From a virus: 21,822 nucleotides of DNA. The position numbers and the translations under genes were made by a program. Of the stretch, positions 1 to 21,606 are shown in pieces (within the stretch, counting starts at the first letter, position 1; the number at the start of each line of letters is the position of its first letter). The stretch spans positions 1 through 21,822 of the IMG/VR virus record IMGVR_UViG_3300024518_000712; one strand, written 5' to 3'. Below the pieces are notes generated by a model. That model ran no database searches, was not told the DNA's origin, and worked only from the letters and a program-made list of their open reading frames with translations.

Positions 1-547
1 CGAGCACGTCGTAGTTGATGACCACGACATCGGGCTGGCTCGGGAACACCTCACCGCCACCGTTCACGATGTCGATCCGACGCTCATGGACCAGCCACCT
101 CTGAAGCTCGTTGCGCCAGTTCAGCTTGAGGCTGGCTGGGCAGACCACGAGCACCGTCTCGGGGCGCGTGGCGTTGATGACCCCGATGGCCTGAATCGTT
201 TTCCCGAGACCCATCTCGTCACCGAAGAGCGTGGCGTCGCGCCCGAGGGCGTATGCGATCCCGGCCCTCTGGAACGGGAGGTATTGCAGCCCGTCAGGGG
301 AGGGGATGTCGATGGTCGCGTCGGTAGCGCGGGAAGCCTCGACAGCGGCCTCGACCTCGGCAGCGTCGGGCGTCGTCCACTGGGAGACTTGCCACTCGCC
401 CTGGTACTTCGAGACGCCGTAGCCGAGTGCCTTCACCTCGTCCTTGTTATCACGCCACACTTCCCAGAACTCGGGCGTGGGCGTGGCCGAGCGCACGGTG
501 CGCCCGTCTGGCAGTTCCTTGGTCTCTCCCCACGTCAGGTTTAGCAC
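1..547 (-). CDS. SNF2/SMARCAL1-like DEAD-box-type helicase, N-terminal part (runs off window)
   Basis: Superfamily 2 ATPase of the SNF2 type, probably a DNA translocase or annealing helicase used in phage replication or recombination. About 182 residues are present and the frame is open to the left edge. A Q-like motif (LPFQRAGIAYAL, about residues 90-101) is followed by Walker A (GDEMGLGKTIQAI, about 109-121) and motif Ia (VCPASLKLNW, about 135-144). This spacing fits the SMARCAL1-like group common in phages. Motif II (DEAH) and the C-terminal helicase lobe would lie beyond the window. The GTG start at 547 is chosen because GGGAGGAGGG lies just upstream and the preceding gene stops 4 bases away. 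It is the third gene of a leftward operon. Family assignment is firm; the exact role is inference. Confidence 0.9.
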   Translation of the reverse strand, partial: MLNLTWGETKELPDGRTVRSATPTPEFWEVWRDNKDEVKALGYGVSKYQGEWQVSQWTTPDAAEVEAAVEASRATDATIDIPSPDGLQYLPFQRAGIAYALGRDATLFGDEMGLGKTIQAIGVINATRPETVLVVCPASLKLNWRNELQRWLVHERRIDIVNGGGEVFPSQPDVVVINYDVL

Positions 548-551
548 CGTC

Positions 552-836
552 TCAGCCCTCCTCCCGTAGGATGCGGCGATGGGCTTCGAGTCCACCGGAC
601 ATCCCGAGGATGTCGCGGCGGCGCATCGTGATCACTGCGGGGGAGATCCCGCGACCGAACTCTAGGTCGTGGCGTGGATCGGCGGCTATCTCTTGGATCT
701 CGCGTAGGGTCGCCTTGCGCTGGGTCATCAGTGCGAAGACCGTGCTGTAGGTCTCCCACTTGCTGAAGTTCTCAAAGGCGTCGACGATCCGTGAGCGCGT
801 GGCGTCGGTCATCGCGAGCGGGGTGGAGGTGACCAT
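552..836 (-). CDS. hypothetical phage protein, 94 aa
   Basis: Unrecognised small soluble protein, mainly helical in appearance, with a charged C-terminal half. It starts at ATG 836, with GGGAGG about 6 bases upstream. The previous gene ends in TGA two bases before this ATG, and the helicase gene begins 4 bases after its own stop, so the three genes are almost certainly co-transcribed and translationally coupled. A second in-frame ATG at 812 (MTDATRS) is possible but has no comparable ribosome-binding site. No catalytic motif, membrane segment or metal site is visible. Its position before a helicase suggests a replication or recombination role, but nothing in the sequence proves it. Confidence 0.75.
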   Translation of the reverse strand: MVTSTPLAMTDATRSRIVDAFENFSKWETYSTVFALMTQRKATLREIQEIAADPRHDLEFGRGISPAVITMRRRDILGMSGGLEAHRRILREEG

Positions 837-837
837 C

Positions 838-1014
838 TCAGACCTCCCACCGGATGGCGTGATACTCTATCCGGTATGGCGCATCGGCGTCCTGTGCAAA
901 GCGTACCGCTATGTTGGCGGCAGCCGCTTCGGTCTCGAACCGCGCCACGAAGTAGCCATCGTGGAAAAGTTCGTTTCGCCGTGTGATCTCGAAAGTCATT
1001 GCCGTGTCGGTCAT
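838..1014 (-). CDS. small hypothetical protein, first gene of left leftward operon, 58 aa
   Basis: Short acidic-to-neutral protein beginning MTDTAMTFEITRR. The ATG at 1014 has AGGAG about 9 bases upstream. A second in-frame ATG at 1047 would add 11 residues (MDNNLRNRSTE) and would lie at the predicted transcription start, so a leaderless alternative exists. The C-terminal half (HDGYFVARFETEAAAANIAVRFAQDADAPYR, in parts) looks like a small alpha/beta fold, but I recognise no family. The leader and promoter are near copies of those of the other leftward operon, whose first gene also begins MTD. The body of the two proteins is otherwise unrelated by eye. Confidence 0.65.
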   Translation of the reverse strand: MTDTAMTFEITRRNELFHDGYFVARFETEAAAANIAVRFAQDADAPYRIEYHAIRWEV

Positions 1015-1053: not shown

Positions 1054-1083
1054 AATATGGGGGGACACCTGTCCCCTACGCAA
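1054..1083 (-). promoter_or_regulatory. leftward promoter of helicase operon
   Basis: Minus-strand -35 TTGCGT (1083-1078) and -10 CATATT (1059-1054) are separated by 18 bases. The predicted start is near 1047. The same hexamers occur with 17-base spacing before the other leftward operon at 20490-20462. The spacer is almost entirely filled by a palindrome (1061-1076), so a bound protein would compete directly with RNA polymerase. The hexamers are only moderate matches to sigma-70 consensus; support comes from the duplicated arrangement. Confidence 0.6.
1061..1076. promoter_or_regulatory. palindromic operator, copy 1 (perfect)
   Basis: GGGGACACCTGTCCCC is a perfect 7-2-7 inverted repeat lying between the -35 and -10 of the leftward promoter. 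Related palindromes occur at 20467-20482 and 20504-20519, with an imperfect one at 1172-1187. The shared form is GGGGRCA-NN-YGYCCCC. The position inside a promoter spacer implies repressor binding; the protein is not identified. Confidence 0.65.
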
Positions 1084-1114: not shown

Positions 1115-1144
1115 TTGACCCGTTGGGCGGTGTCGCCGTAAATT
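1115..1144 (+). promoter_or_regulatory. candidate rightward late promoter
   Basis: TTGACC (1115-1120) and TAAATT (1139-1144) are 18 bases apart, the best sigma-70-like pair I see upstream of the capsid gene. A start near 1151 would give a leader of about 170 bases containing an imperfect operator, an intrinsic terminator and a hairpin before the capsid start codon. The -10 match is partial, so the call is tentative. A phage-specific sigma factor would use other sequences. Confidence 0.4.
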
Positions 1145-1171
1145 GGTGTCAGGATATTAGGAGAGGGTGGC

Positions 1172-1187
1172 GGGGGCAGACGGCCCA
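1172..1187. promoter_or_regulatory. imperfect operator-like palindrome, copy 4
   Basis: GGGGGCAGACGGCCCA matches the complement of the palindrome at 20504-20519 (GGGGGCAGACGCCCCC) at 14 of 16 bases. It lies about 20-35 bases downstream of the predicted late transcription start, where a bound repressor could block elongation. Its symmetry is weaker than that of the other three copies, so it may be a chance GC-rich match. Confidence 0.35.
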
Positions 1188-1237
1188 CGACAACCGGGAC
1201 TCTCTCAGGACAGTGCGTGACGCTTGCTCGAACGCGA

Positions 1238-1291
1238 CTGCCCACAGCGTACCACATTCAGTTCTACGTGGTGCTGGGGCAGTTTTTTATT
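1238..1291 (+). terminator. strong intrinsic terminator upstream of the capsid gene
   Basis: A long rightward stem is formed by CTGCCC/GGGCAG, CAGC/GCTG and ACCAC/GTGGT (15 pairs with a 1-base and a 2-base bulge on the left arm). It closes a 12-base loop at 1256-1267 and is followed directly by TTTTTTATT (1283-1291). No plus-strand gene precedes it in the window. It therefore either ends a short leader RNA from a promoter around 1115-1144 or stops read-through from elsewhere. It ends 28 bases before the capsid start codon, so the late genes must be reached by antitermination or read-through. Confidence 0.75.
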
Positions 1292-1314
1292 CCCCCGGCA
1301 CACATAACCGGGGG
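1292..1314 (+). promoter_or_regulatory. hairpin covering the capsid gene ribosome-binding region
   Basis: CCCCCGG (1292-1298) can pair with CCGGGGG (1308-1314) around the 9-base loop CACACATAA. The right arm is the G-rich tract that must serve as the Shine-Dalgarno for the ATG at 1320. Closing this stem should hide the site, which suggests translational control of the capsid gene, or a structure remodelled by a partner. It follows the terminator T-run directly. Confidence 0.5.
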
Positions 1315-1319
1315 GACCA

Positions 1320-2675
1320 ATGAACATTCGCGAGAAGGCGCGTGAGCTAAAGGCTAGTTGCGAACAGCTTCTGAGCAGCGCCGAATCCGAAGACCGCACC
1401 CTGAGTGCTGACGAGCAGGAGCAATACGACTCCAGCTTCATCGAACTCGAAGGTGCCTTGGCGCAGATCAAACGCGCCGACAACCTTGCGGTAGTATCCG
1501 CAGGGCTCGCAGAACCATCGACGCCGTCAGTTGGGCCGACAGCGGCACTTGAGCCAGAGCAGACCCGCGAGATCGTAGTGGGCCACGACCGCGCAGTCGC
1601 GAAGGGTTTCGACAACATCGGGCAGCAGTTGCAGGCGATTGCCCACGCATCGCACCCTGAGAGCCGCTACGAGAACATCGACAAGCGTCTCTCGTTCTTG
1701 CAGGAGCGTGGCGGCGATCCGAATGGCGAGGTTCGCGCATCGGGTGCAAGCGAAGCCGTCGCATCGGATGGAGGTTATCTGGTGCAGAAGGATTTCAACG
1801 ACCAGATCGCAGAGCGCGTCTACAGCATCGGCGATATCGCTTCGCGGGTCACGCGGCAGGCCATCGGACCAAACGCGAACGGCCTCAAATACAACGTGGT
1901 CGACGAAAGCTCCAGAGCGGCAGGATCGCGCTGGGGCGGCGTGAGAGCCTACTGGGTTGCGGAAGCAGGAGCACTGACCGCCAGCAACCCAACCTTCAGT
2001 CAGCAAGAACTCACGTTGAAGAAGGTTGCAGCCCTGTTTTATGCGACCGAAGAACTCCTCATGGATCAGACCGCACTCGCGGGCATGGTCGAGCGAGTTG
2101 TTCCGCAGGAGATCATGTTCTTGGTCGAGGACGCAATCCTCGGCGGGAGCGGTTCAGGCCAGCCACTCGGCATCAGCAACTCTGCTGCCGTGGTGACGCA
2201 GGCGAAGGAATCTGGGCAGACGGCGACCACGATCAACGCCAGCAACATCGAGAAGATGTGGTCGAGGCTCTGGGGACCAAGCAGGGCGAACGCCGTGTGG
2301 CTGATCAATCAGGACGCAGAGCCTCAGTTGACGGCTCTGGCTGATGCCAACGGGAACGCTCTGTACATTCCGCCTGGTGGGCTGTCAGACACGCCCTACA
2401 GCAGACTGTTCAACCGTCCCGTGATCATGTCCGAGTATTGCTCGACGCTTGGGACCATAGGGGATGTGCAATTGCTCGATCTCTCGCAGTACTTCCTAAT
2501 CGACAAGGGTGGGGTCAGGGCTGACTCTTCCACCAGTGTTCGATTCCTTTATGACGAACGGGCATTCAGGTGGATGTTCAGATGCGACGGCCAGCCTAGC
2601 TGGAACAGCGCACTGACGCCTGCCAACGGCTCGAACACGCTGTCGCCGTTCGTCAACCTTGCGACACGGAGCTAG
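1320..2675 (+). CDS. major capsid protein, HK97 fold, with N-terminal delta/scaffold domain
   Basis: 451 residues, first gene of the late operon. Residues 1 to about 130 are charged and helical (MNIREKARELKAS at the start, with an SADEQEQYDSSFIELEGAL helix), typical of the scaffold-like delta domain removed by a prohead protease. The mature fold begins near GGYLVQKDF (151-159), the usual N-arm start of this family. Later family features are the ATEELLMDQ region (about 243-251), the VEDAILGGSGSGQPLG loop (about 270-285) and the C-terminal YDERAFRWMFRCDG strand. A hairpin precedes the ATG. No protease, portal or terminase gene adjoins it, which is unusual for this family. Confidence 0.95.
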   Translation: MNIREKARELKASCEQLLSSAESEDRTLSADEQEQYDSSFIELEGALAQIKRADNLAVVSAGLAEPSTPSVGPTAALEPEQTREIVVGHDRAVAKGFDNIGQQLQAIAHASHPESRYENIDKRLSFLQERGGDPNGEVRASGASEAVASDGGYLVQKDFNDQIAERVYSIGDIASRVTRQAIGPNANGLKYNVVDESSRAAGSRWGGVRAYWVAEAGALTASNPTFSQQELTLKKVAALFYATEELLMDQTALAGMVERVVPQEIMFLVEDAILGGSGSGQPLGISNSAAVVTQAKESGQTATTINASNIEKMWSRLWGPSRANAVWLINQDAEPQLTALADANGNALYIPPGGLSDTPYSRLFNRPVIMSEYCSTLGTIGDVQLLDLSQYFLIDKGGVRADSSTSVRFLYDERAFRWMFRCDGQPSWNSALTPANGSNTLSPFVNLATRS

Positions 2676-7104: not shown

Positions 7105-8801
7105 TACTATCTGAGATGAAGGTAGTATTGACTGCGGCCACGTCTGGCTTCGCGAAGTCGATGGACTGGGCGCAACAGCGGACAAAGGGCTTCCGCAAGT
7201 CAGTGGCTAAGGTGGGAGGTGCCCTTAAGGGCATGGCATCTATCGCGCTAAAGGCGGGTGCGGCGTTAGCCGGGATCGGGTGGGGTGCGAAGAAGATCTT
7301 TGACCTTGGAGCGTCCATTGAGGAGACAGGGTCGAAGTTCAACACGGTCTTCGGAAGTGAGGCTGGCGCAGAGGTGTCGGCGTTCCTCGACAACTTCGCC
7401 GCCAAGGCTGGCCTCACGTCTAACGAAGCGAAGGGGTTGGTGGCTACCACAGGTGCTATCACTCAAGGGTTGGGCTTCAGCCAGAAGGCGTCGGGTGAGG
7501 CGGCTATAGCGATCACCAAGCTCGCAGGCGATCTGAGTTCGTTCAACAACTTGCCGACAGAGCAAGTGCTGATGGGCATCAACAGTGCCCTTACAGGCGA
7601 GCGAGAACAGATGAAGCAGTTGGGCGTGGTCATCCTAGAGGCTGATGTTCAGTTCAAGGCGTTCGCCATGACAGGCAAGACCGTAGCGAAGAACCTCACC
7701 CAGCAGGAGAAGGCCACTGCGACCCTGGCGCTGATCACGGAGAAGGCGGGGAGCGCGGTTGGCGACCTCAACCGCACGCAAGGATCTGCGGCGAACGTAG
7801 CCAAGAGGCTGAAGACGCGGTTCTTGGAGATCCGCGATGCCGTCTCTACTGCACTGATGCCAGCGTTCAAAGAGATCCTCACAAGTCTCGAAGAGAACGA
7901 GCAAAAGTTCATCGACCTGAAGGATGAGATCCTTGAGAACTCGGGCGTGATCAGCGCGTGGGCGATGGTATTTGTCGAGTCTGTGAAGTTCGTCGGGATG
8001 TTCATTCTGGGGGTGATCAGAAACATTCAGAACATGGGCGAGATATTTGTGAACGTGGCGGACATGGCGAAGAATGCTGGACGCCTGGACTGGGCGGGAG
8101 TTAAGGCGGAGTGGGAGGAGATCAAGGCAAACAGAGAAGCGATGAAGAAAGTAGATGAAGAGCTATCAGAGCAGGCCGCAAAGATGGGCGCGGCTTTCAG
8201 GTTAGCGTTCAGCGGTGGGATGGCAGCCGCAAGAGACTTCGGGGAGACAGTTGCAAATATCCCACGGATTCTCGATGACACTGGTGACAGTGCAGCCTCG
8301 ACTATTATATCCCTAAGTGACAAGATGGGAGAGTTGGGCACTAGCATCTCCAAGAACTTTGTGGGCCGTATGACGGATGCAGCGCAAGGCGGAAAAGATG
8401 CATTTGATGGGATGTTCGCATCCATCAAGAAGCAACTCGTCGAGCTTGCGATGAGGGCTCTTTTGTTCAAGGCTATCATGGGCGTTGGCGCGAAGTTCGG
8501 CATCGACACAGGCGGCTTCGCTACAGCGATGACTGGCTTCAAGGGAGCGGCAACGACAGCGACGGGCGACACGGCTGGCGGCGTTGCTGGCGGCGCTGGT
8601 ACGCCGATACTCTCGGGCAAGGCGGCGAACGCATCGCGTGGCGGGCTTATCGTCAACCAGAACATCAACTTCAGCGTCTCTGCCATTGACGGCAGGTCAG
8701 CCGCCGCATTCATCAAGCAGCAAGGCGGAACCATCGCGGAGGTTATCGCTACGGCGGCGAAGGACTCGACGGCCTACCGTCGCCAGTTGCAGGGGGCTTA
8801 G
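7101..8801 (+). CDS. tape measure protein, 566 aa
   Basis: Sets tail length and is probably carried inside the tube. The N-terminal helical region is followed by hydrophobic stretches near 45-62 and 283-306. The most diagnostic part (about residues 138-185) is LAGDLSSFNNLPTEQVLMGI, then SALTGEREQMKQLGVVI and LEADVQ, the conserved core of many tape measures. The C-terminus is Gly/Ala-rich, then NQNINFSVSAIDGRSAAAFI. At about 0.15 nm per residue the length would suggest a tail near 85 nm, a rule-of-thumb estimate. The ATG overlaps the stop of the frameshift product (ATGA). Confidence 0.92.
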   Translation: MILSEMKVVLTAATSGFAKSMDWAQQRTKGFRKSVAKVGGALKGMASIALKAGAALAGIGWGAKKIFDLGASIEETGSKFNTVFGSEAGAEVSAFLDNFAAKAGLTSNEAKGLVATTGAITQGLGFSQKASGEAAIAITKLAGDLSSFNNLPTEQVLMGINSALTGEREQMKQLGVVILEADVQFKAFAMTGKTVAKNLTQQEKATATLALITEKAGSAVGDLNRTQGSAANVAKRLKTRFLEIRDAVSTALMPAFKEILTSLEENEQKFIDLKDEILENSGVISAWAMVFVESVKFVGMFILGVIRNIQNMGEIFVNVADMAKNAGRLDWAGVKAEWEEIKANREAMKKVDEELSEQAAKMGAAFRLAFSGGMAAARDFGETVANIPRILDDTGDSAASTIISLSDKMGELGTSISKNFVGRMTDAAQGGKDAFDGMFASIKKQLVELAMRALLFKAIMGVGAKFGIDTGGFATAMTGFKGAATTATGDTAGGVAGGAGTPILSGKAANASRGGLIVNQNINFSVSAIDGRSAAAFIKQQGGTIAEVIATAAKDSTAYRRQLQGA

Positions 8802-17910: not shown

Positions 17911-18033
17911 TTAGTTTTTGTCTTCCCTCGCGTCCAGATAAATCTCGACCACAGCGGCCACGCAGAGGAAGAGGAAGAAGCACCATCCCACCATCAAGAC
18001 GAACTCCACGTCGTAGCCGTATGGGCCACTCAT
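17911..18033 (-). CDS. 40-aa membrane protein, last gene of right leftward operon
   Basis: MSGPYGYDVEFVLMVGWCFF, then a continuous hydrophobic stretch (about 10-31) and a charged tail ending LDAREDKN: a single-pass membrane peptide. ATG 18033 has AGGAAG 5 bases upstream and overlaps the preceding stop (ATGA). A longer reading from 18117 overlaps the previous gene out of frame and is rejected. It lies next to, and opposite, the endolysin gene. Function is unknown; small membrane peptides of this type include holin-like proteins, superinfection-exclusion factors and antiholins. Confidence 0.75.
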   Translation of the reverse strand: MSGPYGYDVEFVLMVGWCFFLFLCVAAVVEIYLDAREDKN

Positions 18034-18152
18034 GGCGACTTCCTGAACGTCACCCAGTGGGTGTGCGCGGCCAGCCAGCCGTAGCGGACGCCGTAGCTCA
18101 CCGCGATGACAGCGCACGCTCCCGCGAGGGCGACCAGCGGCCAGCGTTTCAT
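18030..18152 (-). CDS. 40-aa membrane protein, overlaps its neighbours
   Basis: A 41-codon frame, short enough to be missed by length cut-offs. MKRWPLVALAGACAVIAVSY has a basic start and a hydrophobic segment (about 5-20), followed by VRYGWLAAHTHWVTFRKSP. It could be an inner-membrane protein or carry an uncleaved signal anchor; there is no clear lipobox, although AGAC is weakly similar. GGAGG lies 5-6 bases before the ATG. Both ends overlap neighbours as ATGA, the arrangement used throughout this operon, which strongly supports it. Confidence 0.7.
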   Translation of the reverse strand: MKRWPLVALAGACAVIAVSYGVRYGWLAAHTHWVTFRKSP

Positions 18153-18400
18153 AGTGACCTCCTCACCGCATCACGGCAGTCCGCACCTGTGTCTTCTTCC
18201 GGCGTCTCGTATAACACGTCGAAGTCTGGGTGGTTCGACCTGTACCATCGAAGAAGCTCCGTCAGATATTCGGCTCCCTTGTACAACTCATGGAGCCCAT
18301 CGCGACCCTCGTAGCTGTAGTCCCCAACGAGGCAGTCAGCGTGATTGCCGATTATGCGGAGCCCCCTCACAACGCTCGGCGTCAGCGGCGGGCGTCTCAC
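18149..18400 (-). CDS. hypothetical protein, 83 aa
   Basis: Unrecognised, helical, soluble. Starts at GTG 18400 with GAGGAGG about 6 bases upstream and overlaps the preceding stop as GTGA. Visible segments: SVVRGLRIIGNHADCLVGDY and GLHELYKGAEYLTELLRWYR, then a short acidic section (ETPEEDTG). No membrane segment or catalytic motif. The position in a tightly coupled early-type operon suggests an accessory host-modifying protein, without proof. Confidence 0.75.
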   Translation of the reverse strand: MRRPPLTPSVVRGLRIIGNHADCLVGDYSYEGRDGLHELYKGAEYLTELLRWYRSNHPDFDVLYETPEEDTGADCRDAVRRSL

Positions 18401-18651
18401 GGTGTCCTCCTCTTCAGCGGGTCACGCTCGCGGAAGCCCTGGAGCGTGACGCCATGCTCGTGCGCCACCTCGCGGATCGTCTGTGGCACGAGTTCGTCGG
18501 TGAACGGCGGCTGATACTTCGAGCGCGAGGATGTGCGCTCGACCGTCCCGTCTGACCAGAGCCTCCACGACTTGCGGTAGCGGCCATCTCCGTTGTGTGT
18601 GGCTTTGCCTTTGCTCGACTTTACGAGGATGTGGCCTGTGGGGATCGTCAT
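18397..18651 (-). CDS. hypothetical basic protein, 84 aa
   Basis: Starts at ATG 18651 (MTIPTGHILVKSSKGKATHN), overlapping the preceding stop. A much longer reading from 18960 is the shadow of other genes. Strongly basic, with RYRKSWRLWSDGTVERTSSR resembling a small beta-hairpin unit and a C-terminal helix (DELVPQTIREVAHEHGV). No known family recognised. Nucleic-acid binding is possible from the charge; nothing more can be said. Confidence 0.75.
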   Translation of the reverse strand: MTIPTGHILVKSSKGKATHNGDGRYRKSWRLWSDGTVERTSSRSKYQPPFTDELVPQTIREVAHEHGVTLQGFRERDPLKRRTP

Positions 18652-18848
18652 GCTGTCTCCTTCGGCCACGTCAGTGGCTGGGGGTTCTCTAGGAAGGCCC
18701 GCTGAAGCGGCGGGATAGGCGTGTACGCGCCCTTCCAGCGTCTCAGGGTGCGAGGGTGTACCCTCATCACCTCTTGGGCGAAGCGGGCGTCTGTCAGCTT
18801 CGACTCCTTGATGCGAGCGTGGAGCAGGATCACGTGCTTGTTCTTCAT
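18648..18848 (-). CDS. small helix-turn-helix DNA-binding protein, 66 aa
   Basis: Residues about 18-44 (LTDARFAQEVMRVHPRTLRRW) fit a helix-turn-helix of the XRE/Cro class: a first helix, an alternating turn and the recognition helix PRTLRRW, followed by a basic loop. The protein is little larger than a single HTH domain, like Cro. ATG 18848 has GAGGAG upstream; its stop overlaps the next start. It is the only clear transcription-factor-like gene in the window, so it is the first candidate to bind the palindromic operators. This link is inference. Confidence 0.75.
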   Translation of the reverse strand: MKNKHVILLHARIKESKLTDARFAQEVMRVHPRTLRRWKGAYTPIPPLQRAFLENPQPLTWPKETA

Positions 18849-19210
18849 CGTGCTCTCCTCTCTCTGGCTTTGGCGTAGCGTTCTTGGTTTCTAGTGAAGC
18901 GTGGGAGGTGCTCCTCGCAGACCTTCCAATCGTCTGCGTTACCCCGAATGTCGAGCCCATTACGGAGCGGCACCGAGTCGTAGGGATGCACCGGGGCGTT
19001 CATGCCAACGCAGTAGTCGCAGTAGTCGGTGCGGATGCTCCAGTGACCCTTGTCCTTCACCTCGCGGAAGCCGCTGCCGCCGAAGGTCAGAATCGTCATA
19101 CCCCACGAGATCGGAGCGGAGCAGTGCGGGCAGAAGTCGCCGTCCACTTCCCCGTAGGCGACGGGCTTGCGGCACTTGGGGCACGGCGGTCGGTGGGCCT
19201 TGGCTGTCAT
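18845..19210 (-). CDS. double zinc-ribbon protein, 121 aa
   Basis: Two metal sites are visible: Cys10-Pro-Lys-Cys13 with Cys27-Pro-His-Cys30, and Cys64-Asp-Tyr-Cys67 with Cys98 and His101. The first is a classical zinc ribbon. The middle region (WGMTILTFGGSGFREVKDKG) is beta-like and the C-terminus is a basic helix (RNQERYAKARERRAR). Starts at ATG 19210 after GGAGGG and is coupled to the following gene by ATGA. Such proteins may bind RNA polymerase, nucleic acid or other proteins; the role is unknown. Confidence 0.8.
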   Translation of the reverse strand: MTAKAHRPPCPKCRKPVAYGEVDGDFCPHCSAPISWGMTILTFGGSGFREVKDKGHWSIRTDYCDYCVGMNAPVHPYDSVPLRNGLDIRGNADDWKVCEEHLPRFTRNQERYAKARERRAR

Positions 19211-19423
19211 CTATCCCTCCTGTGTGCGAACACGCTTCGGGAGGCGAGGCATCGCAAGCTGGGAGTCACAGTCAATGCAGTAGGCTAGTCCACCCTCCCT
19301 GCTGAGGATCTCTTCGACGGTGACGTAAAGGCTCCCGTCTGGCCCTACGACTTGGGCCTCGGGGCCACAGTCAGGGCAAGTAAGCTCGAAGCAGACTGCT
19401 GTCGCGATCTTGGCGGTCTTCAT
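19211..19423 (-). CDS. small zinc-ribbon protein, 70 aa
   Basis: Starts at ATG 19423 (MKTAKIATAVCFELTC), with AGGAGG about 7 bases upstream, and overlaps the preceding stop. Cys16-Pro-Asp-Cys19 and Cys49-Ile-Asp-Cys52 make a zinc ribbon, with a GSLYVTVEEILSREGG strand-helix between. It has a basic tail (RLPKRVRTQEG). It lies directly before the double zinc-ribbon gene. The frame from 19576 in some readings is not coding. Function unknown. Confidence 0.75.
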   Translation of the reverse strand: MKTAKIATAVCFELTCPDCGPEAQVVGPDGSLYVTVEEILSREGGLAYCIDCDSQLAMPRLPKRVRTQEG

Positions 19424-19818
19424 GGCGTTACCTCCTGCCTCGGAAGGATCACTGCCCAGTTCATCTTGCCACGGCGGGGGCAGTAGCCGTTGTCCTCTAC
19501 GACCTCGCCCCCCTTGACTACCATCGCGTGATGACCCGCCGCGACCATCGCGTCCCTGCCGTCCTCTCTCAGCCACCTCGCCAGAGTTGGGTCATCGGAC
19601 CAGTGATACCAGATGATCTTGGCGTCTGGGATATACTCCCTGACCACGGCCAGCCACGCCCTGTCGTTGCACCAGCCCCGCTTGCCCTTGTTGGAGGGGT
19701 GATGGCGGACCAGATCAGCCGCCTCCTCCTTGGAGACATCTCCGTAGCCCATGAGGGTCAGGACATAGGCCAGCGCGGTCGGCACACAGTACCTCGCCCA
19801 CGTTGCTCGGTCAGCCAT
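19420..19818 (-). CDS. papain/C39-like protein with Cys-His-Asp/Asn motif, 132 aa
   Basis: From ATG 19818 (MADRATWARYCVPTALAYVL). Cys11 is in a Y-C-x-P-T-A-L-A helix start, the usual nucleophile context of C39/papain-like peptidases. GHHAMVV (His96/97) and EDNGY (Asp109/Asn110) can supply the base and third residue in the right order and spacing for a minimal papain-like domain. Between them are helix and linker sections (SKEEAADLVRHH and GWCNDRAWLAVVREY). It lacks a signal peptide, so it probably acts in the cytoplasm, on unknown targets. The start overlaps nothing; TGA of the upstream gene is 1 base away. The active site is inferred. Confidence 0.7.
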   Translation of the reverse strand: MADRATWARYCVPTALAYVLTLMGYGDVSKEEAADLVRHHPSNKGKRGWCNDRAWLAVVREYIPDAKIIWYHWSDDPTLARWLREDGRDAMVAAGHHAMVVKGGEVVEDNGYCPRRGKMNWAVILPRQEVTP

Positions 19819-19819
19819 C

Positions 19820-20134
19820 TCAGGCCCCCTTCGAGCACATCCACTCCAGTGCTCTCTCATGGTGGATGGACACGCCGCGCTTCGGCAGGCGTCCGCGCCA
19901 TGCCACTGCCTCGCGGATCTCCTGTGGCGCTCTGGTGGCCTCATAGCCCACCTTGACGGCTGGCCCCTTGGGGGTGAGTCCGTTGTGGGTGACCCATGCG
20001 AGGTAGGCAAGGCATCCGCCTGCCGTCATCATCCGGTCGCCCATCTCGAAGTCGGTGCGGCTCTTGGCTCCGCGCCCGCGAAGGTTGTGGACCCTGTACA
20101 TCCCCCGGTTCTCGCCACGCTGGATCGGCGTCAC
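19820..20134 (-). CDS. hypothetical protein, start uncertain, about 104 aa
   Basis: The frame ending at 19820 looks coding (GAKSRTDFEMGDRMMTAGGC, then LAYLAWVTHNG and RGVSIHHERALEWM), but no good start codon fits. A strong GGGAGGTGG at the end of the previous gene leads to GTG 20190, which is in the wrong frame and stops after 19 codons. In the right frame, protein-like sequence (TLRQAIERLAGYHPK) extends up to about 20188 without ATG, GTG or TTG. The GTG at 20134 is the first usable start, although its ribosome-binding site is weak. Possible explanations: a one-base indel, a non-standard start or a real late start. No family recognised. Confidence 0.55.
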   Translation of the reverse strand: MTPIQRGENRGMYRVHNLRGRGAKSRTDFEMGDRMMTAGGCLAYLAWVTHNGLTPKGPAVKVGYEATRAPQEIREAVAWRGRLPKRGVSIHHERALEWMCSKGA

Positions 20135-20192
20135 CCTGATCTTGGGGTGATAGCCCGCCAGCCGTTCGATGGCCTGTCGTAGAGTGACACGA

Positions 20193-20423
20193 TCAGGCCA
20201 CCTCCCGGTTAAGGATGTGCCTGACGGACTCTTCGAGTTCGTCGATGGAGGCCATGCGGGAGGCGATCCCGCCATGCTTCTCGGCGAGGGCGTTGGCCCG
20301 CTCTTCGGTGATGCCGAAGTGGCGTTGGGACACCCACTCGCCGATCCACTGCCAGTCGGTCGGCTCGGCGGGTGCCATCGCGGCGGCGAGGTTGCCAAAG
20401 TGCTCTAGTACGGCGTCGGTCAT
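20193..20423 (-). CDS. first gene of right leftward operon, 76 aa, unknown
   Basis: MTDAVLEHFGNLAAAMAPAE from ATG 20423, with AGGAG about 9 bases upstream. An upstream in-frame ATG at 20456 would add MTINLRNRSAQ and would start at the predicted transcription start. The protein is helical: WQWIGEWVSQRHFGITEERA, NALAEKHGGIASRM and a final helix DELEESVRHILNREVA. No family recognised; the first position in the operon behind a regulated promoter suggests an early accessory function. Its leader is shared with the other leftward operon. Confidence 0.75.
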   Translation of the reverse strand: MTDAVLEHFGNLAAAMAPAEPTDWQWIGEWVSQRHFGITEERANALAEKHGGIASRMASIDELEESVRHILNREVA

Positions 20424-20461: not shown

Positions 20462-20490
20462 AATATGGGGACAGATGCCCCCACACGCAA
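20462..20490 (-). promoter_or_regulatory. leftward promoter of right small-gene operon
   Basis: -35 TTGCGT (20490-20485), 17-base spacer, -10 CATATT (20467-20462), predicted start near 20455. Same hexamers as at 1083-1054, and again a palindrome fills the spacer. The duplication makes this more convincing than the hexamers alone. Confidence 0.6.
20467..20482. promoter_or_regulatory. palindromic operator, copy 2
   Basis: GGGGACAGATGCCCCC: an inverted repeat with one mismatched pair in the 7-base arms, lying in the promoter spacer exactly as copy 1 does. Confidence 0.6.
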
Positions 20491-20503
20491 GGCCATCCCC
20501 AAG

Positions 20504-20519
20504 GGGGGCGTCTGCCCCC
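20504..20519. promoter_or_regulatory. palindromic operator, copy 3
   Basis: GGGGGCGTCTGCCCCC: 6-base arms pair perfectly. Its centre is 37 bases from that of copy 2, upstream of the leftward -35 and on the side facing the rightward operon. It may serve as a second site for co-operative binding or act on a rightward promoter. Confidence 0.5.
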
Positions 20520-20556
20520 TAGCACGGCGGCGGCGGCTGGGGTTACCTTGACTCGT

Positions 20557-20573
20557 GACCTTCGACACAGGAG
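20557..20573 (+). promoter_or_regulatory. diverged third copy of the leader element, plus strand
   Basis: GACCTTCGACACAGGAG matches the leader block at 14 of 17 bases, and AGGAG lies 7 bases before an ATG at 20580. A TTGACT at 20548-20553 is close, but I find no good matching -10, so the promoter of the rightward operon is not identified. Confidence 0.45.
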
Positions 20574-20579
20574 TCCAAG

Positions 20580-20765
20580 ATGCAATTCCCGCCAAAGCAC
20601 CATATCCAACACGTCGACACCCTCGTGTCGGTGGCCTCTATGTTGAGGAGCTATGCCGAAAGGTGCTCCCGGCGAGTCACTCCTTCGTCGAAGGCGGCTA
20701 AGGGGGTCACCACACGTTCAACCTTCAAAAGGAGAACCCATGACTACAGAGGAACTGCTGCATAA
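20580..20765 (+). CDS. possible small leader protein, up to 61 aa
   Basis: MQFPPKHHIQHVDTLVSVAS begins at ATG 20580, with AGGAG 7 bases upstream inside a copy of the conserved leader. The first 30 residues look helical and protein-like; the rest is basic and low in complexity. It overlaps the start of the nuclease gene by 26 bases in another frame. A 6-bp hairpin (CGACAC/GTGTCG, 20615-20630) lies within it. It could be a real small protein, a regulatory leader peptide or chance. Together with the control elements, it occupies the 316-base stretch between the divergent genes. Confidence 0.35.
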   Translation: MQFPPKHHIQHVDTLVSVASMLRSYAERCSRRVTPSSKAAKGVTTRSTFKRRTHDYRGTAA

Positions 20766-21606
20766 GCTCTTCACCGCGACGAAACACGCGAGGGAAGTCG
20801 TCTACTCCGTAAACAAGATGGGGTACACGATTGACGCGAAGCTCTACCGCCGTGTGACGAGTATGCTCGGCGGTGGCATCCCGAAGCCAGCCTTGGTCGG
20901 CTGGGGGATTAAGGCGACTAGCGAGTATGCTTGGGAGCATCGCGAGGTCTGGTCGAAGCTGAACAAGACGGACGCGATCAAGCTGCTCAAGGGCTCGCCG
21001 TACAGCCAGCGCGACGATGCCGCCGCCCGTGGCACGGCAGTCCACAAGACGCTGGAAGCCCTGCTGGGCGACACGGAGATGCCGCAAGACCTGACAGAGG
21101 ACGAGCAGGCGTGTGCCGATGCTGCCGCTGACTTCCTCGCCTTGCGCGACTCGAAGCACCTCGGGACCGAGATCACGGTGTTCAACGACTCGCTGGGCAG
21201 AGGCTACGCGGGCACCCTCGACCTCTGGGAGGTCGACCGGGACGGCCAGACTTGGATTCTGGATTATAAAACATCCAAGAGCGGGGTCTTCCCCGACATG
21301 GCGATCCAACAGGTGGCCTACCAACGCGCAGAGTATGCGCTGGTCAAAGCGAGGCCGCTCGGTGATGGGAAGTCTGTCGCGAAAGTCATACCGTGGGGGC
21401 CTGAGTACGCAGAGCGACTCGGCATCGTCCACGTGAGCCCAGAGGGTGCCGTTCTCCATCCGATCAAGAACCCCGACAGCCTCGTGCCGATCTTGGAGTC
21501 GGCGGCGACGATCTCGCAGTGGCTGTCGGATACGAATTCGTTTCGCAAGACACCCCGCGAGCGAGTGTATGAAGATCCAATCACTTTGAAAGGAGTCGAG
21601 CAATGA
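20740..21606 (+). CDS. PD-(D/E)XK nuclease, Cas4/RecB-like exonuclease, 288 aa
   Basis: The ATG at 20740 is chosen because AAAAGGAG lies 6 bases upstream; a longer frame from 20653 adds a basic, implausible start. Nuclease core in order: RGTAVH (His102), GTEITVF (Glu144), AGTLDLWEV (Asp161), ILDYKTSK (Asp175, Lys177) and the QxxxY motif IQQVAYQRAEY (Gln190, Tyr194). This is the RecB/Cas4 group, which in phages processes DNA ends for recombination or replication. No four-Cys iron-sulphur cluster of true Cas4 is seen. Its rightward operon faces away from the leftward one. The stop overlaps the next ATG. Confidence 0.88.
   Translation: MTTEELLHKLFTATKHAREVVYSVNKMGYTIDAKLYRRVTSMLGGGIPKPALVGWGIKATSEYAWEHREVWSKLNKTDAIKLLKGSPYSQRDDAAARGTAVHKTLEALLGDTEMPQDLTEDEQACADAAADFLALRDSKHLGTEITVFNDSLGRGYAGTLDLWEVDRDGQTWILDYKTSKSGVFPDMAIQQVAYQRAEYALVKARPLGDGKSVAKVIPWGPEYAERLGIVHVSPEGAVLHPIKNPDSLVPILESAATISQWLSDTNSFRKTPRERVYEDPITLKGVEQ

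Follow-up and report, generated by a model that had tools for sequence, protein, structure and literature searches.

The window analyzed here, the whole 21,822-nucleotide (21.8-kb) stretch of virus record IMGVR_UViG_3300024518_000712, is a linear fragment that carries short palindromes of one kind at more than one of its promoters, and this raises the question of whether these are operators and, if so, of which protein. The virus has no cultured relatives. DNA comparison found neither a cultured relative nor a host, capsid identity to the phage collection was at most 35.4% among the matches listed, and a search of genome_contigs returned no relative of the capsid protein.

An HK97-type capsid gene is found at 1320, and other genes resemble tail and lysis genes, as judged by their order and content. 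The 58-aa and 94-aa proteins of the leftward cassette (Table 1) belong to no known family, while its helicase is of the SNF2 type (SNF2-rel_dom, E 8e-12) and is truncated by the edge of the window. This helicase gene (2-541, leftward) sits between the protease and capsid genes, an order seen in the related contig L006; the content of the protease-capsid interval varies among relatives. At the other end of the window a small-gene operon and an exonuclease gene are divergently transcribed. Distant relatives of the exonuclease are found in L068-L092. The stretch ahead of the exonuclease gene (20555-20740; about 9820-10000 in L004) is highly similar between the window and L004; it contains a hairpin, GACACCCTCGTGTC, and may be another structured leader.

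Table 1. Coordinates of the palindromes, promoters, genes and leader RNA discussed in the text
Feature	Position	Strand	Remarks
Operator 1 (proposed), GGGGACACCTGTCCCC	1061..1076		Perfect 7+2+7 palindrome; L006 and L007 have a counterpart there, changed in sequence
Operator 2 (proposed), GGGGACAGATGCCCCC	20467..20482		Same place in L004 (9726), changed sequence
Operator 3 (putative), GGGGGCGTCTGCCCCC	20504..20519		Between divergent transcription units
Promoter around operator 1	1054..1083	-	-35 TTGCGT 1078-1083, 18-bp spacer, -10 CATATT 1054-1059
Promoter around operator 2	20462..20490	-	-35 TTGCGT 20485-20490, 17-bp spacer, -10 CATATT 20462-20467
Accessory cassette under operator 1	2..1014	-	58-aa and 94-aa proteins, helicase
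Small-gene operon led by operator 2	17911..20423	-	Includes the HTH gene
66-aa helix-turn-helix (HTH) protein, best candidate for the regulator	18651..18848	-	In the operator-2 operon; 97% identical in L004
Exonuclease gene, divergent from the operator-2 operon	20740..21606	+	phrog_298, E 1.4e-29
Capsid-gene promoter	1115..1144	+	TTGACC-N18-TAAATT; no operator
Conserved structured RNA, capsid leader, about 87 nt	1157..1243	+	Covariation; no Rfam match

Palindromes in the promoter spacers

The original prediction described a family of four 16-bp palindromes, to be checked by a search for their consensus. When the window was searched with GGGGRCANNYGYCCCC, exact matches on at least one strand were found at exactly three places, 1061-1076, 20467-20482 and 20504-20519. 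This is far above chance: an order-1 Markov model predicts approximately 0.001 exact matches on one strand and 0.002 on both, and none was found in 600 simulated sequences of order 1, 2 or 3. The consensus was derived from the sites themselves, which makes this estimate post hoc, a doubt that recurrence in relatives removes for 1061 and 20467. The three palindromes, nearly identical to one another, are real, and their origin by chance is very unlikely. Matches with up to three mismatches, in contrast, are at chance level (19 observed versus 16.6 expected), and the supposed fourth copy, at 1172-1187, is such a chance-level match and forms an RNA stem. The centre of the putative operator 3 is 37 bp from that of operator 2; its minus strand fits the consensus exactly and its plus strand with one mismatch, and L004 keeps the left half alone (GGGGGCGTCTGGCCGC).

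Two of the sites were also predicted to sit inside promoter spacers, and this proved correct, those at 1061 and 20467 each being located between a -35 and a -10 hexamer on the minus strand. The palindrome occupies the whole interval between the hexamers, and operator 2 shares one base with its -10, the former ending and the latter beginning there. Read on the minus strand, the two units are CTTGCGT-A-GGGGACAGGTGTCCCC-CCATATTCACTGCATG (1061) and CTTGCGT-GT-GGGGGCATCTGTCCCC-ATATTGGTTCATG (20467), and they share the order TTGCGT, palindrome, CATATT, start near ATG, CCTTC, GGAG. The conserved ATG, about 7 nt downstream of the -10, marks the region in which the transcript is expected to start (near 1047 for the operator-1 promoter), and is followed by CCTTC and the ribosome-binding site GGAG. 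These leftward hexamers are imperfect; they were identified by eye and by alignment, and a simple consensus scan misses them.

Recurrence in related and unrelated phages

The promoter-operator unit can be aligned at six places in four phages, two of them in the window and four in three uncultivated relatives (L006 at 7571; L007 at 2517, also present in L027; L004 at 9726 and 8598); L005 duplicates the window sequence. Each unit heads a different leftward cassette, the genes behind it being the SNF2 helicase and two small genes in the window, the helicase alone in L006 and two other genes in L007, while L004 possesses an additional cassette beside the lysis genes with its own operator copy at 8598. 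Within the clade of the window, the capsid-locus cassette and the site occur together in the window/L005, L006 and L007/L027; L036-L042 have no leftward cassette before the capsid gene and no operator site. Since the presence of the site tracks that of leftward cassettes among relatives, the unit goes with these cassettes. The arms change in a paired, symmetric manner, position 5 being A-T in 1061 and L006 and G-C in 20504 and L007. Operators of dimeric phage repressors (Cro/CI type) are expected to be palindromes of some 14-18 bp that overlap a promoter more often than chance would have it, and to be shared by different promoters within a phage and by corresponding positions in related phages; the 16-bp palindromes agree with both expectations. 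In genome_contigs the operator pattern gave five isolated matches. Matches to the pattern in viral_contigs (L025, L026, L028-L030, L098, L100-L105) were set aside by eye, as the promoter arrangement was incomplete or the site was terminator-like.

In more distant relatives the promoter frame is kept and the palindromes differ (TAGACG-TTT-CGTCTA, TAGGTG-TTT-CACCTA). The unit reads TTGCGT-AG-TAGACGTTTCGTCTA-TATAAT in L043 and L044 and TTGCAT-AG-TAGGTGTTTCACCTA-TTATTATT in L046. The 24-kb contig of L046 repeats its palindrome imperfectly, as TAGCAGTTTCACCTA, between the hexamers of an early promoter (TTGACA-N17-TATACT), that of the leftward operon beside the exonuclease. A different palindrome at the same two places is the pattern expected if repressor and operator have diverged together. 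L009 and L045 contain leftward genes and show no clear palindrome.

A similar plan is found in phages unrelated to the window. In L106 (AGGGGCATTTGCCCCT) and L099 (AGGGGCAGTTGCCCCT) a palindrome of the form GGGGCA-NN-TGCCCC within a promoter spacer is followed by small genes and an HTH gene, the latter encoding proteins of phrog_14076 (72 aa in L106, 68 aa in L099); both contigs were retrieved via the operator pattern and are thus not independent tests. The unrelated contig L031 carries up to four such sites within one region. Two cultured phages, Pkon1 of Paracoccus and DSS3-P1 of Ruegeria, were chosen by protein similarity only; the former has TAGCGCCATTGGCGCTA between TTGACA and TAAATC ahead of its HTH operon, and the latter GGTCCAAATGGACC in the spacer at the corresponding place. 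The spacer palindrome of the HTH operon is clear in Pkon1, L099 and L106, moderate in DSS3-P1 and weak or absent in 16-3, phiA005, IKEMa6-1 and AsaM-56. Where Aeromonas and Rhizobium phages encode similar HTH proteins, a palindrome was either weak or not found. In a single-site shuffle test 1061, Pkon1, L099 and L106 stand out, and 20467, DSS3-P1 and others do not.

Palindromes resembling AGGGRCANNTGYCCCT occupy promoter spacers in L031 (3810, 5217, 5693, 6664), L099 (5801) and L106 (5145). Each of these promoters is followed, close to where transcription would begin, by a short inverted repeat that is similar among them (GGGGCAATCAAGCCCC, AGGGCAATGAAGCCC), with GGGCAATGAAGCCC as the counterpart in Pkon1.

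A candidate repressor and competing readings

We lean toward the view that a Cro-like dimeric repressor, most likely the 66-aa HTH protein, has its operators at 1061 and 20467 and would silence the leftward cassettes. The sites, their promoter frame, their recurrence, the linkage to cassettes and the position of the HTH gene are read from the sequence; binding, repression rather than activation, the identity of the protein and the timing are what we infer. A dimer seated on the spacer palindrome would block access of RNA polymerase to both the -35 and the -10. Since the unit travels with leftward cassettes, one regulator would govern all cassettes of one phage and, its gene being under operator 2, would limit its own synthesis, the cassettes presumably being shut down following a burst of early expression. 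The spacers, at 16-18 bp, are of normal length, so that the leftward promoters should work unaided unless blocked, and self-working promoters together with a dimer covering the interval between the two hexamers make repression with self-limitation the best reading. The six units in four phages, the changed palindromes and the HTH gene within the operon support the proposal that one regulator acts on early or accessory promoters through several sites. Five partial records yielded no integrase, S24 peptidase or HTH_3 domain, which makes shut-off of early and accessory genes likelier than an immunity switch; the CI-type repressor and integrase by which a lambdoid immunity region is recognized were not seen in these records.

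The HTH protein is a plausible candidate for the regulator by virtue of its location and of its conservation in L004, and the unrelated phages with a similar plan lend it support by analogy. A search for its sequence relatives found only that of L004, which is also the only relative that covers the HTH region and has the same operator. The HTH gene was looked for and not found in the L046 contig, which has the other operator, and the link between HTH gene and operator hence counts two phages with it and one without. Profile matches of the protein are weak and under the cut-offs (PF13384, E 0.075; VC1465 family, E 0.022), and its predicted structure is a low-confidence four-helix model (pLDDT 60) for which no fold match was found. 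The phrog_14076 profile did not match it, and phrog_8898 did so at E 0.16 only. Direct comparison with the phrog_14076 proteins gave an hhalign probability of 6% (P 0.006; 26% over 46 columns), and kinship with them is doubtful and not established.

It is rather unlikely, yet deserves consideration, that the sites are operators for some other protein, either a host regulator such as a stress or SOS repressor or a phage regulator encoded outside the sequenced part. Neither a host nor a cultured relative was found by DNA comparison, the HTH protein is weakly characterized and, the genomes being incomplete, a further regulator could lie beyond the records. The absence of integrase, S24 and HTH_3 from the five partial records argues against a lysogeny repressor, though not against a host protein; differing palindromes in the same frame are more easily explained by a phage regulator that diverges along with its sites, even if the relatives may have other hosts. 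Binding of an activator, MerR-like from within the spacer or class-II-like from operator 3 on the exonuclease promoter, seems improbable. It would suit the rightward exonuclease unit, for which no good -35/-10 pair was found and in which operator 3 lies about 40 bp upstream of the start given by a possible weak -10. MerR-type activation, however, requires spacers of 19-20 bp, compared with 16-18 bp in units of the window type, and only one half of operator 3 exists in L004. Very improbably, the unit is mainly a recombination module for cassette exchange and the palindrome is incidental: promoter, operator and leader are indeed similar across different cassettes, but symmetry is kept despite changes of sequence, and homologous exchange does not need a different palindrome in the same frame, as the distant relatives have. 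That the palindromes act as RNA hairpins, in terminators or leader structures, is true of the copy at 1172-1187 and hardly credible for 1061 and 20467, which precede the points where transcription from their own promoters should begin and around which a scan found no terminator-like site.

Repressor operators of this kind have precedents. Cro of the telomere phage PY54 is a lytic repressor that recognizes a 16-bp palindromic operator (OR3), and the operators of relatives differ at peripheral base pairs which set specificity (PMC4488713). PY54 is temperate, with a cI gene, and its Cro reportedly binds a single site and probably does not control its own gene. The window likewise has 16-bp palindromes that differ among relatives, but several of them, one of which heads the operon of the candidate gene, and neither an integrase nor an S24/HTH_3 repressor is seen in the partial records. 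L099 and L106, with their phrog_14076 proteins, share with Pkon1 and DSS3-P1 the common plan of spacer palindrome, small genes and small HTH gene; the half-site GGGGCA of the former two resembles that of the window, whereas the palindromes of Pkon1 and DSS3-P1 differ.

In phage lambda the Cro and CI operators overlap promoters and form a paired CI/Cro switch with triple operators. The window is similar in that a palindrome overlaps the promoter of the operon encoding the candidate repressor, and differs in having single operators in the spacers of separate cassettes, with no CI/Cro pair and no triple operators. The stoperators of mycobacteriophage L5 gp71 are asymmetric 13-bp sites at many intergenic places; several dispersed sites for one phage regulator, as proposed here, are a common feature, while the sites of the window are palindromic and within promoter spacers. 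Judged by sequence, the predicted operators belong with those of phage repressors, an established kind that had not been known from this clade. For phages that lack cultured members they would supply a regulator-operator pair open to testing, and they suggest common control of accessory cassettes inserted at different places in the genome.

The capsid leader

The copy at 1172-1187 had been placed just after a candidate late promoter and taken as a sign that late genes might be under the same control. It lies about 21 nt past the point where transcription from the capsid promoter is expected to begin, and the site is a covarying RNA stem and no operator. It differs from the consensus at 2-3 positions and contains stem P3 (GGGC-AGACG-GCCC) with the conserved loop AGACG. 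The chance-level match and the covarying stem rule it out as an operator, and the proposed control of late genes finds no support, as this is a base-paired element with compensatory changes located downstream of the start.

The RNA is found in the capsid leader of the window (1157-1320) and in L006, L007, L009 and L036-L046. Across 12 distinct sequences, standard pairs fill 93.8% of the cells in helices P2-P4 versus 77.5% in shuffles; 12 of the 19 pairs are changed on both sides, which none of 500 shuffles reached, and shifting the partner by one column lowers pairing to less than 40%. A covariance model detected the RNA in 17 of the 46 sources searched, the window included (E <1e-11), and nowhere else convincingly; the 12 sequences on which the model was trained, as well as near-duplicates, are among these matches, and the search is thus not an independent test. 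A search of Rfam 15 gave no match.

An alternative helix of 6-8 bp, between the 3′ strand of P4 and a downstream segment, could form in nine of the 12 sequences (for instance GACTGCCC with GGGCAGTC, GCCACCC with GGGTGGT, and GCTGCCT with AGGCAGC), and several of these have a hairpin over the likely ribosome-binding site. These features suggest a two-state leader controlling capsid translation. Neither the operator motif nor the leader RNA was reported in the titles and abstracts that the literature searches listed. The RNA may be the more novel of the two, and a covarying RNA before a capsid gene would add a new class to the cis-regulatory RNAs of phages.

As a tentative picture, about which we have more doubt than confidence, cassettes among the structural genes would bring their own promoter-operator, one autoregulated HTH protein would govern them all, and its recognition sequence would be swapped blockwise between related phages; the capsid gene would in addition be headed by an undescribed class of RNA, in which two exclusive pairings and a hairpin at the ribosome-binding site exert riboswitch-like control.

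The capsid promoter itself (TTGACC-N17/18-TARATT) is retained in several relatives; the L007 version has a further palindrome, GGGCGGTGCCGCCC, in its spacer, and in the window this palindrome is weaker.
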